This document shows positions 2,410 through 23,030 of a DNA stretch of 64,000 nt, one piece after another; positions within the stretch are counted from its first letter, which is position 1, and the number at the start of each line of letters is the position of its first letter. A program made the translations under genes and the position numbers. The notes beneath the pieces were generated by a model. It was not told where the DNA came from. It ran no database searches and saw only the letters and a list, made by a program, of their open reading frames with translations. The stretch comes from Eubacteriales bacterium (GTDB taxonomy: Bacteria > Bacillota > Clostridia > Tissierellales > GPF-1), in NCBI GenBank assembly GCA_030625815.1, contig DAOUQF010000001.1:124001-188000 (forward strand), read 5' to 3'.

Positions 2410-3089
2410 TGGGGCGATATGATCGAAACAGGATTTTTACCGCATCGGAGATGGAGCGACTGCAAGCGTCTAAAGTTTGTGTGCTTGGGTGTGGCGGTCT
2501 CGGCGGATATATCGTTGAAATGTTGTCCCGAGTTGGAATCGGTGAATTAACCATTGTCGACGGGGATGTCTTTGATGACACCAATTTGAATCGCCAGCTT
2601 TTTGCAACCAGTGAAAATCTGGGTGAAGTGAAGGTTTTTGAAGCGAAAAAACGAATTGCAATTGTGAATCCTGAAACAACGATTGAAGCGGTGAACGCTT
2701 ATATCGATTCGGAAAATGCGAAAACGATCATAGGTGATGCTGACTTGGTAGTCGATGCTTTAGATAGTGTTTCATCAAGACTCGTCGTGCAGGAGATTTG
2801 TGAAGAATTGGGCATTCCCTTTGTTCACGGAGCCATTGCCGGCTGGTTTGGCCAGGTGACCACTATTTTCCCTGGCGATCGAACCTTGGCTCGACTCTAT
2901 CAAGATAAGGGGGATCACGGGATTGAAGAAGAACTTGGAAATCCCTCCTTTACACCGGCAGCCATTGCATCCATTGAAGTGGCGGAAGCCATTAAAGTGC
3001 TTTTGGGAAAGGAAGAAGTCTTGCGCAATCGGATTTTAATGATTGATTTATTGGATCACGAATATCATGTGATTCAGATGGAAAACTAA
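2406..3089 (+). CDS. ThiF/MoeB/HesA-family adenylyltransferase
   Basis: A 227-residue E1-like enzyme expected to adenylate the C-terminal glycine of the MoaD-like carrier. The nucleotide-binding GCGGLGGY motif is near residue 29 and is followed by an acidic D-x-D strand and the conserved NRQ of this superfamily. The paired CxxC zinc ligands present in E. coli MoeB and ThiF are not visible, so it is a zinc-less, shorter version. The start ATG overlaps the stop of moaD; ATG 2409 is an alternative. I leave the symbol open because ThiF and MoeB cannot be separated here. Context favours cofactor synthesis for the aldehyde oxidoreductase. Confidence 0.82.
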   Translation: MMGRYDRNRIFTASEMERLQASKVCVLGCGGLGGYIVEMLSRVGIGELTIVDGDVFDDTNLNRQLFATSENLGEVKVFEAKKRIAIVNPETTIEAVNAYIDSENAKTIIGDADLVVDALDSVSSRLVVQEICEELGIPFVHGAIAGWFGQVTTIFPGDRTLARLYQDKGDHGIEEELGNPSFTPAAIASIEVAEAIKVLLGKEEVLRNRILMIDLLDHEYHVIQMEN

Positions 3090-3091
3090 AT

Positions 3092-3190
3092 AATTATTCC
3101 GAGTCAACCCCTCTACGGGTAACTACGAGGGCTTGACCTATGGGTAATGGAAGAAATGCCATTGCCTCCCGTGTTTGGAAAGGAAGAAAA
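3092..3190 (+). ncRNA. Moco/Tuco riboswitch (molybdenum/tungsten cofactor RNA motif)
   Basis: The stretch contains the hallmark blocks of the Moco RNA motif: TCCGAG near 3098, GACCTATGGG at 3135-3144, GCCTCCCGTG at 3163-3172 and GGAAAGG at 3177-3183. A stem pairs GGTAATGG with CCATTGCC between the middle blocks. It lies between the aldehyde oxidoreductase group and moeA and is followed by a terminator-like hairpin, so it should control the cofactor genes downstream. Some members of this class respond to the tungsten cofactor (Tuco); the neighbouring enzyme makes that plausible. Confidence 0.88.
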
Positions 3191-3245
3191 AAACAAGTGA
3201 TTAGGCGTTCTTTTCTACGGGAAGAACGCCTATTTCTTGTTTATT
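3191..3245 (+). terminator. Riboswitch expression platform: terminator hairpin
   Basis: A perfect 11-bp stem (TAGGCGTTCTT 3202-3212 with AAGAACGCCTA 3222-3232) is extended by AAACAAG 3191-3197 pairing with CTTGTTT 3236-3242. The distal strand is T-rich. Its place between the riboswitch and moeA suggests cofactor-dependent termination. Confidence 0.75.
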
Positions 3246-9463: not shown

Positions 9464-9581
9464 CTATTCCTCCTGAAGGAAATTATTTTTATTCGCAACT
9501 TATTGTAACACAAAATTCAATTGAGCGTGGCTGAATCCTTTTGGGTACATATAGAGAAGATTGGAAACACTGGAGGGAACG

Positions 9582-10079
9582 ATGCAAAAGAGAATATTGA
9601 TCGGTTTTTTAATTCTATTCTTGGCAGTCCTGGGGATGAACGGATGTGCGTCTGGAATACCGGATGAAACAAATCATGTGGAACCACTTGAAGAGTCGGT
9701 TGCTATTGAAGCGTTGGTTGCAGAGGAGGGCTTTTATACGAGTCCCGAGAAAGTCGCGGAATACATTCAGCTCTTTGGAAAACTGCCGGGCAACTATTTG
9801 ACGAAAAAAGAAGCGCGGGATTTGGGATGGGTGAGCGAGGACGGAAATCTTTGGGAAGTAACGGATCAAATGAGTATAGGCGGAGATCGGTTTGGCAATC
9901 GGGAAGGTTTGTTGCCGAAGTCGGATGACCGGCAATGGTTTGAATGCGATGCGAATTATACCGGGGGATATCGGGGAGCCGAACGGTTGGTTTTCTCTAA
10001 TGACGGTTTGGTTTTTTATACTGCGGATCATTATGAAAGCTTTGAAGAGATCAGGAGGATCGAGGATGAGAACGATTGA
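9582..10079 (+). CDS. Barnase-family guanyl-specific ribonuclease, predicted lipoprotein
   Basis: A 165-residue secreted ribonuclease toxin of the barnase (N1/T1) family. Residues 1-21 form a signal peptide ending in a lipobox-like MNGC with C22, so the enzyme is probably tethered outside the membrane. The barnase fold covers about 55-160: KLPGNYLTKKEARDLGWV, SIGGDRFGNREGLLP, YTGGYRGAERLVFSND, TADHY. The catalytic set of barnase (E73, R83, R87, H102) maps exactly to E121, R131, R135 and H150. ATG 9582 follows GGAGGG. Its stop overlaps the start of a barstar gene, giving a toxin-antidote pair. Lipid anchoring is unusual, since classic barnase is freely secreted. Confidence 0.93.
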   Translation: MQKRILIGFLILFLAVLGMNGCASGIPDETNHVEPLEESVAIEALVAEEGFYTSPEKVAEYIQLFGKLPGNYLTKKEARDLGWVSEDGNLWEVTDQMSIGGDRFGNREGLLPKSDDRQWFECDANYTGGYRGAERLVFSNDGLVFYTADHYESFEEIRRIEDEND

Positions 10080-10335
10080 AATGGATGGCGGAGAAATGAA
10101 AACAAAATTAAGCGCACATTGCTATATCAAGAAAGCGATGGAATTTCCAGAGTATTATGGAGAAAATCTGGATGCCTTATGGGACTTGCTGTCAACGATT
10201 TCATTGCCGACCACGATTCGGCTTGATCATCGAGAGACGTTAATTGAAAACTTAGGTACTTATGGCGAACGTTTAATTGAGGTGTTTCGCGAGGCGGCTT
10301 TGGAGAATGATTCGCTTTGGATTGAAATTCAATAA
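10066..10335 (+). CDS. Barstar-family ribonuclease inhibitor
   Basis: An 89-residue cytoplasmic inhibitor that should protect the cell from the barnase encoded just upstream. The signature FPEYYGENLDALWD (residues 27-40) carries the barnase-contacting tyrosines and aspartates (Y30, Y31, D36, D40, equivalent to barstar Y29, Y30, D35, D39). A C-terminal VFREA helix is also conserved. The start ATG 10066 lies inside the barnase gene (14-bp overlap) with its own AGGAGG site at 10053-10058, so the two are translationally linked. Confidence 0.93.
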   Translation: MRTIEMDGGEMKTKLSAHCYIKKAMEFPEYYGENLDALWDLLSTISLPTTIRLDHRETLIENLGTYGERLIEVFREAALENDSLWIEIQ

Positions 10336-10467: not shown

Positions 10468-11652
10468 ATGGAGCGAAAACAAATTTTGATGCGATTAAAA
10501 CGAGAGTGCAAAGCGCGTCGTCAAATCATTGGCGTAGCGGTAGGCGCGGGCATTACGGCCAAGTATGCAGTGCGGGGCGGCGCGGATTTGATTTTTGTTT
10601 TAAGTTCCGGAAAGTTTCGGCAAATGGGGGTGGGATCCCTGGGTGCTTATCTTCCCTTTGCCAATAGCAACGCCATGGTGATGGAAATCGGCCTGAGGGA
10701 AGTAAAGCCATTGGTTCGAGATATTCCTGTGATTTTTGGCCTCAATGCGACGGATCCGTTAATCGAGTTGGAGCGATATATCGAAAAAATAAAAGTTGCG
10801 GGATTTGATGGCATTAACAATTATCCGACGATCGGATTGGTCGATGGCCAGTATCGCGAATATATGGAAGAACACGAAATCACCTTTCAAAAGGAGGTGG
10901 AAGCCATGCGTATCGCACATCAAAAAGGGCTATTTACCGTTGCTTTTGTTTTTGACGAAGTGCAAACACGGGCAATGTTGGATGTGGAAGTCGATGTGCT
11001 TTGTGTTCATTTGGGATTGACGGCGGGCGGTGTTCTGGGCGCGAAAAAGGTGTTATCTTTGGAAAATGCCCAACGGCGAGCCAAGGAATTGTTCGAGGTT
11101 TGCGATCGGGAGAGAGCGAATGCTTTGAAGATGGTATACGGAGGTCCGATTCAAACCCCAATCGATGTGCAATATATGCATCAACATACGCAGATGGACG
11201 GGTATATCGGCGGATCCTCCTTTGAGCGAATTCCATCAGAAAAAGTCATCACAAATATCACCCATGCCTTTAAGCAGTCTGATCGGTTGGAGTCCGATGA
11301 TTTGATGGCAAAAATGTTGGATGGGATTACGAAGCATTATGAATATGTTGATTTTGTAAAGCGGTATATTGCGGAACACTATCAGCAAGAGGTGTCCCTG
11401 CGGGAAATTGCAGAAATTGCCCATGTTTCTTCCGCTCATTTGAGCCGATTGTTTCGAAAAGAGGTTGGGAGCAATTTTAGAAACTATCTGTTGGAATATC
11501 GCATGCATCAGGCGGCAAAGCTCTTTCAGGAAAAACCATTGAAATGTATGGAAGTTGCCAAACTGGTCGGCTATCAAGACTATTTTCAATTCAGCAAAAT
11601 GTTCAAAAAGGTCATTGGCGTCAGTCCAAGAGAGTATCAACAAAATTTGTGA
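10468..11652 (+). CDS. TIM-barrel (PEP hydrolase-like) sensor fused to an AraC HTH
   Basis: A 394-residue regulator. Residues 1 to about 275 match the TIM-barrel 'signal transduction / phosphoenolpyruvate hydrolase-like' family (GAGITAKYAVRGGAD, SSGKFRQMGVGSL, NNYPTIGLVDG, GGSSFERIPSEK). Residues about 300-394 form an AraC/XylS DNA-binding domain with two HTH motifs (SLREIAEIAHVSSAHLSRLF; YQDYFQFSKMFKK). The barrel is a paralogue of the enzyme encoded at 13056-13889, so the regulator may sense the same ligand. It has its own promoter and terminator and precedes the two genes it probably controls. Confidence 0.87.
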   Translation: MERKQILMRLKRECKARRQIIGVAVGAGITAKYAVRGGADLIFVLSSGKFRQMGVGSLGAYLPFANSNAMVMEIGLREVKPLVRDIPVIFGLNATDPLIELERYIEKIKVAGFDGINNYPTIGLVDGQYREYMEEHEITFQKEVEAMRIAHQKGLFTVAFVFDEVQTRAMLDVEVDVLCVHLGLTAGGVLGAKKVLSLENAQRRAKELFEVCDRERANALKMVYGGPIQTPIDVQYMHQHTQMDGYIGGSSFERIPSEKVITNITHAFKQSDRLESDDLMAKMLDGITKHYEYVDFVKRYIAEHYQQEVSLREIAEIAHVSSAHLSRLFRKEVGSNFRNYLLEYRMHQAAKLFQEKPLKCMEVAKLVGYQDYFQFSKMFKKVIGVSPREYQQNL

Positions 11653-11659
11653 AATCAGT

Positions 11660-11684
11660 AAACCCACAAGCTGTGGGTTTTCTT
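11660..11684 (+). terminator. Rho-independent terminator after the AraC-type gene
   Basis: AAACCCACA (11660-11668) pairs perfectly with TGTGGGTTT (11672-11680) around loop AGC, followed by TCTT. Confidence 0.8.
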
Positions 11685-11764
11685 GCGCGAAACAAAGAGC
11701 GAAAATTCTGAATACAATCACAATAACACAAATTTGTATCTTATAAACACATGTCAAACAATAT

Positions 11765-11781
11765 CGGTAAACGTTATCATT
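11765..11781 (+). promoter_or_regulatory. Possible cre (CcpA) site upstream of the Tm-1-like operon
   Basis: The 17-mer contains AAACGTTATCATT and differs from the cre consensus WTGNAARCGNWWWCAWW at two 5' positions. It shares twelve consecutive bases with the stronger cre site at 54080-54096. It lies 34 bp before the ATG at 11815. Confidence 0.5.
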
Positions 11782-11814
11782 AAATTGCAGGAAAAATTGA
11801 GAAGGAGGGATTGA

Positions 11815-13029
11815 ATGAAAACTATAGCAATAGCAGGTACCTTTGATTCGAAGGGAAAAGAATTTTTGTTTTTGAAGCATGCCTTAGAGGAATTTGGACT
11901 TCAGACATTAATGATTCATACAGGTGTGTTTGAACCTGCCTTTGAACCGGATGTGTCAAATCGGGAAGTCGCCGCTGCAGTCGGTGAAGATATTGATGCA
12001 ATTGCAGAAAAGAAAGATCGCGCTTGGGCGACGGAAGTGCTTTCAAAGGGGATGGCGGAACTCTTGCCGAAACTCTACGAGCAGGGCATGTTTGACGGTG
12101 TGATTTCATTGGGTGGAAGCGGTGGAACCTCGTTGGTGACACCTGCCATGCAGAAGATTCCCATTGGCGTGCCGAAGATCATGGTTTCAACGGTAGCGGT
12201 GGGGAATACAGAGCAATATGTCGGGACCAGTGATATTTTGATGATGCCGTCAATTGTTGATGTTGCGGGTTTGAATTCCATATCGACTAAAATCTTTACA
12301 AATGCAGCAGCGGCGATGGCGGGGATGTTGACCTTTGAATCGGAACGAGAGGTTGAGAAGAAGCCTCTGATTGCAGCCACCATGTTTGGTGTGACGACAC
12401 CTTGTGTGGAATTCGCGCGGGCTTATCTGGAAAAAGAAGGTTATGAAGTTTTGACATTCCATGCAACGGGGGTTGGTGGAAGGGCGATGGAAGCCCTAGT
12501 TGATGCAGGATACATTGAGGGAGTTTTAGATATTACAACGACTGAATGGTGCGATGAGGTTGTCGGCGGGGTTTTGGCCGCGGGACCAAATCGTCTAGAG
12601 GCTGCAGGGAAAAAAGGGATCCCACAGGTTGTTTCTGTTGGCGCCCTGGATATGGTGAATTATGGCGCGATCGACACGGTGCCAGAGGAGCATAAGAAGC
12701 GCAATCTATACAAGCATAATCCAATGGTAACCTTGATGCGAACCTCCGTTGAAGAAAATCAAAAGATCGGTAAGAAAATCGTGGAGAAGCTAAATATGGC
12801 AAACGGGCCTACAGCACTTATATTGCCGCTGAAAGGTGTTTCCATGATCGATGCGGAAGGCCAGCCATTCCATGGGGTACAGGAAGATGCCGTGTTATTT
12901 GATGTGCTTCGAAACGGAATCGATCGAGATGTTGTTGAGTTGATTGAAATGCCGAACCACATTAACGATCAAATTTTCGCTGAAGCGGCGGCGCAACGTC
13001 TATTGGATTTATTAAGGGAAAACAAATAA
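11815..13029 (+). CDS. Tm-1-like ATP-binding domain protein (UPF0261)
   Basis: A 404-residue protein of the UPF0261/Tm-1-like family. The N-terminal domain (about 1-180) opens with [10 protein letters not shown] and includes a glycine-rich [15 protein letters not shown] stretch; the C-terminal domain contains [18 protein letters not shown] and [16 protein letters not shown]. In plants the tomato virus-resistance protein Tm-1 combines this domain with a TIM barrel in one chain; here the barrel is the next gene. The biochemical reaction is not established for bacterial members. It starts at ATG 11815 after AAGGAGGG. Confidence 0.88.
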
Positions 13030-13055
13030 GTAATCGATTGAAAGGAAGCGTAAAG

Positions 13056-13889
13056 ATGAATAAAATGACGAGACAAGAAATTATGGATCGATATCGTGGA
13101 ATCGTTGCGAGTGGAGATATTTTAGTTGGTGTTGGCGCGGGTACTGGGATTACTGCCAAAAGTAGTGAAGCTGGCGGTGCGAATATGTTGATCATCTACA
13201 ATTCAGGTCGCTACAGAATGGCAGGAAGAGGATCCTTGGCGGGATTGATGTCTTACGGTGATGCAAATAAAATTGTTGTGGAAATGGCAGCAGAGGTATT
13301 GCCGGTTGTCGTAGATACGCCAGTGCTGGCTGGGGTATGCGGAACGGATCCATTTCGTTTGATGGAAGTGTTCTTGAAAGAATTAAAAGACATGGGGTTC
13401 AGTGGCGTGCAGAATTTTCCAACCGTTGGATTGATCGATGGCGTTTTCCGTCAGAATCTTGAAGAAACGGGAATGGGTTATGGGTTAGAGGTTGAAATGA
13501 TTCGAAAGGCGCATGAATTGGATCTATTGACGACTCCTTATGTATTTGATCCGGATCAAGCGCGGGCAATGGCGGAAGCCGGTGCGGACATCCTGGTTGC
13601 GCATATGGGTTTGACAACGAAGGGAACAATCGGGGCGAAAACGGCATTGACGCTAGATGATTGCATCGTTAAGATTAAAGCGATTATGGAAGCGGGCCGC
13701 GCAGTGAATCCTGATCTGATGGTCATTTGTCATGGCGGGCCAATTGCGGAACCGAAAGATGCAAAATATGTAATCGACCGCATTAAAGACATTGACGGCT
13801 TCTTTGGTGCATCCAGCATCGAACGATTTGCAGCTGAAAAGTCAATCAAGGCGCAAACGGAGAAATTCAAGAAAATTCAAAGATCGTAA
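13056..13889 (+). CDS. TIM-barrel PEP hydrolase-like protein
   Basis: A 277-residue single-domain TIM barrel of the phosphoenolpyruvate hydrolase-like family ([70 protein letters not shown]). ATG 13056 follows AAAGGAAG at 13040-13047; an in-frame TTG at 13038 overlaps that site and is rejected. It is 26 bp after the UPF0261 gene, forming a two-gene operon equivalent to the two halves of plant Tm-1. The family name derives from structural genomics; the true substrate in this context is unknown. Confidence 0.87.
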
Positions 13890-14070: not shown

Positions 14071-14099
14071 TTGAAAATTTTATTCTACAGTGATATACT
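14071..14099 (+). promoter_or_regulatory. Sigma-A promoter of the c-di-GMP riboswitch transcript
   Basis: TTGAAA at 14071-14076 and TATACT at 14094-14099 are spaced by 17 bp. The riboswitch begins about 10 bp downstream. Confidence 0.75.
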
Positions 14100-14107
14100 A
14101 AAAAAGT

Positions 14108-14192
14108 ATCCGATAATGGCAAACTTGTTGAAAAACAAGGACGCAAAACTATAGGGCCTTACTCATTGAGTTGGTAGCCAGTTGCCGAAGAG
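14108..14192 (+). ncRNA. Cyclic di-GMP-I riboswitch (GEMM-I)
   Basis: The class-I signature is clear: GATAATGGCAAAC at 14112-14124, a GAAA-type tetraloop hairpin, GGACGCAAAACTATAGGGCC at 14139-14158, then GGTAGCCAGTTGCCGAA ending near 14189. It lies between a sigma-A promoter and a strong terminator, 90 bp before a secreted repeat protein. Binding of c-di-GMP therefore probably decides read-through into that gene. Whether it is an ON or OFF switch needs the competing pairing to be worked out. Confidence 0.92.
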
Positions 14193-14202
14193 TCAAAGCG
14201 AT

Positions 14203-14240
14203 TTGAATTCTTCTACACTTGCTGTAGGAGAATTTTTTTG
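14203..14240 (+). terminator. Riboswitch-controlled terminator
   Basis: GAATTCTTCTACA pairs with TGTAGGAGAATTT (one G-U pair) around a 5-base loop and runs into TTTTTTT. It lies directly after the c-di-GMP aptamer. Confidence 0.85.
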
Positions 14241-14283
14241 GCTTTCATTTCGGATCTCCAAAAATTTTTGAAGGAGGTTTATG

Positions 14284-15273
14284 ATGAAAAGCAGAAAAGT
14301 GATGACATGTGTTTTACTGATTATGATGGTGGTGTCATGGTTTGGGGCATCCGGTTTCGCAGACGAAACGGTCCCTGCAACGGAGGATCCGGCGACAGCT
14401 GCGGAAGAGCCTGTAGGCGAACCGGTTGAAGAACCGGAAGCTGAACCAGTGGCAGAACCGGAAGTTGGGTATCTTCGTTTTGATCTGGAGGAAGATTTGG
14501 TCTTTAGCATTGAAGATGGAGTGATTGTTGGAGTCACATCCGAGTTGAATTTTCATGCGGAGGAGCCGACTGAACCAACGGAGCCGGTAGAAGATCCGGT
14601 GGAACCAGAGGATCCAGCGACAGAACCAGAGGATCCAGCAACAGAACCAGCAGATCCAGCAACAGAACCAGCGGATCCAGCAACGGAACCAGCGGATCCA
14701 GCAACAGAACCAACGGATCCAGCAACGGAACCAACGGATCCAGCAACGGAACCAGCGGATCCAGCAACGGAACCAGCGGATCCAGCGACGGAACCAGCGG
14801 ATCCAGCGACAGAACCAGCGGATCCAGCGACAGAACCTGTAGATCCATATGCGGCATACCTTGGATTACCTGTTGCGGAGGGGATTGATCTGCTATTAGC
14901 GGGAACTGAGGTTGAAGGTCCTATTTCACTCGATATCTTTGCGGATGGTGTGACAGCTGAAGCGGTGAAGGCATTGTTGGAAGAAGGGTATGGCGATTTG
15001 TTGAAACTTAATGCTGTTGCCTTGGACAGTGAAAATCCAAATGCAGAGAGATTTGTCAACGCTGCGATTTATCGCATTACTCCCGGCAAAATGAATTTGC
15101 TTGAGAAATTGGGCGCTTATTTCGATGAGTCGGAAATTGACTACGCAGCATGGTCGGTGCTATCGGTAAAAGAAATCCAATCAATGACAAAAATGAAACC
15201 TGCTCAGGCTCCAACTGCTGCAAAAGAGAAAGTGAAAACCAATAACGGTAAGGCAAAAACAAAAAACAAATAA
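14284..15273 (+). CDS. Secreted protein with EPADPAT heptad repeats
   Basis: A protein of 329 residues. It has a signal peptide (hydrophobic core VLLIMMVVSWFGASGFA, likely cut before DETV) and an acidic Pro/Glu-rich region. Eleven perfect-length heptads of the form EP(A/E/T)DPAT follow (14602-14832). The C-terminal part is about 140 residues and I do not recognise it; it ends in a very basic KVKTNNGKAKTKNK tail. No LPxTG, S-layer or membrane anchor is visible. The repeat resembles an extended spacer, as in surface proteins. The gene follows a c-di-GMP riboswitch, so a role in adhesion or the sessile switch is likely but inferred. AAGGAGG at 14271 fits ATG 14284 better than ATG 14281. Confidence 0.8.
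   Translation: MKSRKVMTCVLLIMMVVSWFGASGFADETVPATEDPATAAEEPVGEPVEEPEAEPVAEPEVGYLRFDLEEDLVFSIEDGVIVGVTSELNFHAEEPTEPTEPVEDPVEPEDPATEPEDPATEPADPATEPADPATEPADPATEPTDPATEPTDPATEPADPATEPADPATEPADPATEPADPATEPVDPYAAYLGLPVAEGIDLLLAGTEVEGPISLDIFADGVTAEAVKALLEEGYGDLLKLNAVALDSENPNAERFVNAAIYRITPGKMNLLEKLGAYFDESEIDYAAWSVLSVKEIQSMTKMKPAQAPTAAKEKVKTNNGKAKTKNK
14602..14832 (+). repeat. Tandem 21-bp repeat, 11 copies, coding
   Basis: Eleven contiguous 21-bp units encode EP(E/A/T)DPAT. Variant residues run E,E,A,A,A,T,T,A,A,A,A, and synonymous variation is low (mostly gcg/gca and aca/acg), which points to recent expansion. The copy number is a multiple of 21 bp, so length changes keep the frame. Confidence 0.95.
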
Positions 15274-15286
15274 TGATAATCTCTGG

Positions 15287-15318
15287 GGACTCGATTGGAA
15301 TCGAGTCCTTTTTTTTTA
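15287..15318 (+). terminator. Rho-independent terminator after the repeat protein
   Basis: GGACTCGATT pairs perfectly with AATCGAGTCC around a 2-base centre and is followed by TTTTTTTT. Confidence 0.9.
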
Positions 15319-15412: not shown

Positions 15413-15510
15413 ATGGGAAAATTTATTGTGATGAAAATGAAAAGCGGGACAAAGTTTGATTTAAAAGTGTACGACAGAATGCACCGGTGAGTTCTATTGT
15501 AGAAGAATAG
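15413..15510 (+). pseudogene. Broken DUF1508 (YegP-like) gene with internal deletion
   Basis: A good GGAAGGAGA site precedes ATG 15413. The first 18 residues, MGKFIVMKMKSGTKFDLK, look like the start of a DUF1508/YegP repeat protein. The frame then breaks; shifting frame at 15469 gives VRQNAPVSSIVEE and a stop, which resembles the end of such proteins (SVRKNAP...). The middle of the gene appears deleted out of frame. The in-frame reading as it stands would give only 25 residues (stop 15488-15490). The rest of 15319-15566 shows nothing else I can support. Confidence 0.5.
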
Positions 15511-22819: not shown

Positions 22820-22823
22820 AAGA

Positions 22824-22916
22824 AACGAACATGGGAGCTGTTGAACCGGCTGAGAGTGAAGAGAGATCTTCAGACCATTGAACCTGATCTGGATAATGCC
22901 AGCGGAGGGAACATAG
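22824..22916 (+). ncRNA. TPP riboswitch (THI element)
   Basis: The conserved blocks are present in order: GGGAGC at 22833-22838, CGGCTGAGAGTG at 22847-22858, ACCATTGAACCTGATCTGG at 22873-22891, ATAATGCCAGCGGAGGGAAC at 22892-22912. It precedes thiT, tenA, thiM and thiE-thiD. A terminator follows, so thiamine pyrophosphate should cause early termination. Confidence 0.96.
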
Positions 22917-22949
22917 AGTGAATTCTTATGGAATTCTTTTTGTGAAAAT

Positions 22950-22983: not shown

Positions 22984-23030
22984 TTGCCGTGTTCATAAAT
23001 TCTATTGGTGAGAAGCAGAAGGGAGAAATG

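Follow-up and report, generated by a model that had tools for sequence, protein, structure and literature searches.

The window, the whole stretch of DNA analysed here, comprises 64,000 nucleotides, and between positions 14071 and 15310 its forward strand reads a promoter, a class I c-di-GMP (GEMM-I) aptamer, an intrinsic terminator, a ribosome site, the open reading frame of a secreted protein and a gene terminator (Table 1). An earlier note, made from the letters alone, had described these elements, from the promoter to the gene, in this order, and all of them could be located. The second ATG, at 14284, is better spaced from the Shine-Dalgarno sequence than the one at 14281, and translation perhaps starts there. 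The promoter is placed identically with respect to the aptamer in the homologous leaders that were compared. As the downstream neighbour is convergent, the unit is monocistronic. Comparison of the flanks of the family members revealed no neighbour gene common to different genera, and a conserved operon partner was set aside because the flanking genes vary by genus.

Several other features of the window were recorded. Just past the gene, at 15413-15491, is the remnant of a decayed DUF1508 (YegP-like) gene, which is intact at the equivalent place in a locus of the same genus (L022, 2084-2464). Just upstream of the unit, at 10468-13889, a gene for a PEP-hydrolase-like protein that carries a fused AraC helix-turn-helix domain is followed by UPF0261 and by another PEP-hydrolase-like gene. 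An RNase/inhibitor pair lies at 9561-10335, where a secreted barnase-type ribonuclease (PF00545) is followed by a barstar inhibitor (PF01337). A molybdenum cofactor riboswitch (3085-3201) precedes moeA (3343), and a TPP riboswitch (22821-22928) precedes genes starting at 22989.

Table 1. Features of the riboswitch and gene unit, numbered by position in the window
Feature	Position	Strand	Basis or remark
Sigma-A type promoter, TTGAAA-17-TATACT	14071..14099	+	RNA start expected at ~14106
Class I c-di-GMP (GEMM-I) aptamer	14109..14190	+	RF03167 and RF01051 covariance models
Antiterminator hairpin, GAAGAGUCAAA (14187-14197) with UUUGAAUUCUUC (14202-14213), one bulged A	14187..14213	+	Pre-terminator fold, covariation
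Riboswitch intrinsic terminator, 13-pair stem, loop and T run	14205..14239	+	Hairpin 14205-14235
Shine-Dalgarno sequence AAGGAGG	14271..14277	+	Sequence
Gene for the secreted protein, predicted RsgI-derived SEAL domain, 330 aa	14281..15273	+	Open reading frame; 12 homologues
Predicted Sec signal peptide, aa 1-27, cut ...GASGFA/DE	14281..14361	+	Sequence; kept in homologues
Predicted N-terminal half of SEAL domain, aa 61-87, three strands	14461..14541	+	Profiles, models; NP site changed to EE
Acidic Pro-rich repeat tract, eleven EPxDPAT units, 21-bp period, inside the predicted SEAL domain	14602..14837	+	Predicted disordered
Predicted C-terminal half of SEAL domain, aa 190-248	14848..15024	+	Profiles, structure alignment
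Conserved RF..A..ITPGKMNLLEKL...SVKEI module, aa 253-305	15037..15195	+	Most widely common part of the family
Basic Lys/Asn tail, KTNNGKAKTKNK	15202..15270	+	Charge count; kept in the family
Gene terminator	15285..15310	+	Closes the monocistronic unit

The aptamer passes the gathering scores of both class I covariance models, with 74.1 bits against RF01051 (gathering score 35) and 68.2 bits (E 5.2e-14) against RF03167, c-di-GMP-I-GGC (gathering score 59). The earlier note had proposed a class I c-di-GMP riboswitch and had named failure of the GEMM-I model as refuting it; that failure did not occur, and the ligand contacts are canonical. The bases G20, A47 and C92, which contact c-di-GMP in the class I aptamer (PMC4744006), correspond to 14118, 14145 and 14185 and are invariant in an alignment of 12 leaders, i.e. 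that of the window and 11 homologous ones. The window also resembles c-di-GMP-I riboswitches (RF01051; subfamily RF03167) in the GAAA loop of P2 and in having a transcription terminator as its platform. A chance aptamer was excluded, as the element recurs ahead of 12 of the 13 family members described below.

The expression platform holds two mutually exclusive hairpins, bases 14205-14213 being common to the antiterminator and the terminator. The antiterminator starts at G14187, a P1 base at the 3' edge of the aptamer, and this one clear base together with a weak outer pair makes up its overlap with P1 in the window. It is present in the pre-terminator fold of all six terminator-bearing leaders that were folded (L027 and L103 have no clear terminator), and in an alignment of 12 homologous leaders 92.9% of the cells of its seven pairs are paired, as against 53-64% when the helix is slid. 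Its covariation of 0.351, with nine double-sided changes, compares with a shuffle mean of 0.143 and was reached by none of 500 shuffles, a result that comes from twelve related sequences and is support rather than proof. When P1 and the ligand-contact bases were withheld from other pairing, the terminator probability was 0.97 or higher in six of six leaders. The unconstrained fold contained substantial antiterminator in five of the six, with the window leader reaching only 0.06 at equilibrium. The ligand-free equilibrium fold of the window leader already favours the terminator (P 0.98), and OFF control would therefore need co-transcriptional timing, i.e. kinetics. In L093 and L094 the sequence UACCG of the aptamer is able to pair with CGGUA in the terminators.

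Folding of the aptamer and terminator had been proposed as the way to decide between ON and OFF control, and the expression platform points to OFF. Taking anatomy, conservation and folding together, we predict that the window riboswitch is probably an OFF switch for c-di-GMP. All seven functional class I switches of Clostridioides (C.) difficile are OFF transcription switches that act by termination, among them that of zmp1, which encodes a secreted protease (PMC6366702). A secreted protein lowered by c-di-GMP, as is the case for zmp1 (PPEP-1; PMC6366702), is thus also what is predicted here, although PPEP-1 is a metalloprotease whereas the window protein has no recognised enzyme domain.

The protein itself begins with a Sec signal and has neither a lipobox nor an LPxTG motif, in agreement with its earlier description as a secreted protein with a signal peptide. 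Exactly eleven EPxDPAT repeats were counted, the number given before, and TRF finds 11.2 copies of period 21 over 14602-14837 with 94% matches. The repeat region carries a net charge of -32 and the final 23 residues one of +6, and the claim of a basic tail with no known wall anchor holds well beyond the window: the tail is conserved, and the LPxTG motif and C-terminal membrane segment of sortase-anchored proteins are absent from 13 of 13 family members. The tract of Pro, Glu, Asp, Ala and Thr had been taken for an extended spacer preceding a domain; it is indeed acidic and predicted to be disordered, but it forms a loop inside the domain. In-frame expansion of acidic Pro-rich repeats is likewise possible in the wall and surface proteins of Firmicutes that have Pro/Glu-rich repeats, from which the window protein differs in having no LPxTG, SLH or other anchor and in carrying its repeats in the loop of a folded domain.

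The C-terminal domain, previously called unrecognised, proved to be related to a known one. When the protein and its relatives were scanned against Pfam and NCBIfam, only chance matches came back and no family was named (a Pfam Alanine_zipper match, E 0.42, was rejected as compositional), and a direct profile search of the PDB sequences with the C-terminal alignment likewise returned chance matches only. As Pfam and NCBIfam reach no family, the link to RsgI is drawn from profiles and folds. The profile search of this region advised in the earlier note bore fruit when the family was compared by hhalign with RsgI ectodomains, giving a probability of 98% and an E of 8e-14 for a match that spans both halves, aa 61-87 and the stretch after the repeats, with the repeats as a gap. 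AlphaFold predicted three confident strands, a low-confidence repeat tract and then helices and strands at pLDDT ~80-95, and a second run with family rows only, which tested whether the RsgI rows had forced this fold, returned the same split fold. VIA-align placed 8t9n as the best PDB chain (Z 11.4, r.m.s.d. 2.4 over 90 residues; Z 10.2 for the second model), and RsgI SEAL/periplasmic structures fill the top six and top five rows, with unrelated rows at 4-5. Foldseek alone was weak (best 8hep, E 0.038), the disordered tract being the cause, and this was resolved by VIA-align. The alignment of both halves across the repeats and their single split fold indicate that the repeats are an insertion inside the SEAL domain. 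These profiles and models support the assignment of the window protein as a predicted stand-alone extracytoplasmic SEAL domain of the anti-sigma-I factor RsgI.

In both models the fold is that of the RsgI SEAL/periplasmic domain (PF23750 RsgI_M; 8t9n, 8hdj, 8hep, 8heq, 8her, 8u9o), and the likeness extends to both alignable halves, to the TPGK(L/M)NL..KL and VKEI motifs, to the disordered low-complexity region and to the Lys/Asn-rich end. The window protein differs from RsgI in having its linker inside the domain, in being encoded by a riboswitch-controlled single gene, and in lacking the anti-sigma domain, the retained membrane helix and the Asn-Pro cleavage motif. Neither an RsgI_N anti-sigma domain nor a transmembrane helix was found in it, the signal peptide leading directly into the acidic linker and the SEAL half. 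Autocleavage of RsgI takes place at an Asn-Pro bond, which lies in the first strand pair of the domain. The motif was matched in 55 of 58 RsgI loci and in none of seven aligned family members, in all seven of which DVNPS has become DLEED-like acidic residues. RsgI signals by autocleavage of this domain, followed by the action of RseP and ClpXP, and the motif is not absolute, since Clostridium (C.) thermocellum RsgI8 is likewise without it (PMC12203970). No sigI gene is present in the flanks that were read; the genome holds an ordinary SigI-RsgI pair elsewhere, with its NP site intact (L043).

The homologue search returned first same-genus genomes and clostridial MAGs, together with a remote match, the RsgI protein L023 with its RsgI_N and RsgI_M domains, and after further searches the family stood at 13 members, the window and 12 in other Clostridia. 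Ten have the SEAL form (the window, L021, L022, L024, L025, L026, L027, L091, L100 and L101). The other three retain only the GKMNLLEKL/VKEI C-terminal module and the basic tail: in L093 and L094 a predicted coiled coil, judged by eye from the sequence, replaces the N-terminal half of the SEAL domain, and in L103 the module stands alone. That the same riboswitch and module occur with a coiled coil or with nothing suggests that the module changes its N-terminal partners. Common to all 13 are the signal peptide, RF..A....ITPGKMNLLEKL...SVKEI and then a terminus rich in Lys and Asn; a wall anchor is absent from every one. An RF03167-type aptamer lies upstream of 12 of the 13, with L091 as the exception, and upstream of none of 29 membrane RsgI-type loci. 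The 12 other member genomes contain 3-19 GEMM-I aptamers each, which makes chance placement ahead of 12 of 13 genes implausible. The earlier suggestion that the repeats can change length is borne out in that both unit and number vary (EPxDPAT x11, EEPAEPA-like, EDPAAPA, TTEEPADE, none), a variation seen between species only. Sequences and models support the view that a length-variable acidic linker in the SEAL loop was probably gained in the genus of the window.

The genome encodes 18 GGDEF proteins and has 11 GEMM-I aptamers, which, where read, mostly precede proteins of secreted or surface type. At L012 (1383-1578) tandem GEMM-I aptamers stand ahead of the gene for a secreted protein of transglutaminase-like type; the second of them lies right at the ribosome site, so that control there may act on translation. 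A second acidic Pro repeat protein under riboswitch control is specified at L017 (minus strand, aptamer 1501-1575), where the secreted product of a GEMM-I gene contains a long AEPAVEEPAAEEPTEP-type tract.

The best explanation of the whole, to which we give a probability of about 0.6, is a c-di-GMP OFF switch joined to a secreted RsgI SEAL domain with a role at the wall, the unit being a one-gene part of the cell's c-di-GMP surface regulon. At low c-di-GMP the antiterminator, drawing on the aptamer's 3' edge, would form and allow the gene to be read. Binding of c-di-GMP would hold the P1/3' strand of the aptamer, so that the antiterminator gives way to the terminator and the gene is switched off. 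The product would be exported by Sec, as its predicted signal suggests, and would descend from an RsgI-like domain through loss of the anti-sigma domain, of membrane anchoring and of the Asn-Pro site of self-cleavage. Here the secretion signal, the fold, the loss of the signalling parts and the linkage to the riboswitch are computed and supported; the OFF control, the identity of the ligand, the wall association through the basic tail and the role at low c-di-GMP we infer. The charge and conservation of the tail suggest that it most likely holds the protein at the anionic cell wall, where charge, as the earlier note had supposed, may retain it; there the protein may have a structural or spacing role when c-di-GMP is low and the cell is motile. 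The strongest candidate for the functional part is the GKMNLLEKL/VKEI module together with the basic tail, since these, unlike the SEAL half, are universal in the family.

A different signal might be suspected because RF03167 is the best match kept by the Rfam scan for the window and all homologous leaders, and a true variant aptamer of this family (c-di-GMP-I-GGC) would sense something other than c-di-GMP. From the variant's name and the model consensus, GGC can be read as G20-G47-C92: the RF03167 consensus has a G in GACGCGAA where that of RF01051 has A, and this position is A47 (Vc2 numbering), the base stacked between two guanines. The G expected of the variant is found neither in the window nor in the 11 homologous leaders, all of which have A; the top model is thus a variant family, yet the variant base is absent, and RF01051 gives the window more bits. 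Since A47 is kept along with G20 and C92 throughout these leaders, c-di-GMP is the expected ligand, as predicted from sequence, and variant-ligand sensing was set aside as highly improbable. ON control, in which c-di-GMP binding permits reading and the protein would be a biofilm-phase surface or matrix protein like other GEMM-I products, deserves more weight while remaining unlikely. It draws on seven other GEMM-I leaders of the same genome (L009, L013, L014, L015, L016, L018 and L019), which stand ahead of surface-type proteins and show the anatomy of ON switches, the 5' arm of the terminator lying inside the aptamer, within the last 9-14 nt of the match. These terminators reuse aptamer bases, whereas that of the window begins 14 nt past the aptamer, with which it has no base in common; moreover, it is at the aptamer edge that the covarying, terminator-excluding hairpin starts, and withholding the aptamer bases favours the terminator, all of which argues for OFF control.

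The role of the exported domain could also be read differently, as that of a soluble modulator of SigI-RsgI, in which the non-cleavable secreted SEAL domain would compete with membrane RsgI for a wall ligand or strand and c-di-GMP would become tied to the sigma-I response. The genome does have a SigI-RsgI pair with an intact NP site, and the secreted domain is homologous to the RsgI sensing region, but sigI linkage is seen in no member of the family, and L093, L094 and L103 retain the switch and the C-terminal module without a recognisable N-terminal half of the SEAL domain, which indicates that the functional part common to the family is not the SEAL surface. We consider such a modulator improbable, and slightly more improbable still that this is a Clostridia family of riboswitch-bound secreted proteins in which a captured RsgI ectodomain competes with RsgI, or tunes it, in soluble form, with c-di-GMP determining from outside the cell how sensitive the sigma-I envelope response is.

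The locus is a real conserved unit made of known parts, and no prior description of the combination was found in a literature search or in Pfam and NCBIfam. The finding adds to the c-di-GMP regulon of the Clostridia a family that Pfam and NCBIfam searches leave unnamed and that would be a new class of target for c-di-GMP, and it presents the sensing domain of a signalling protein as apparently reused in a secreted product without the signalling half. With one riboswitch subtype paired with one protein module in several lineages, the family offers a test system suited to the study of opposite c-di-GMP outputs in one genome, and to asking what the RsgI ectodomain and the GKMNLLEKL/VKEI module bind.
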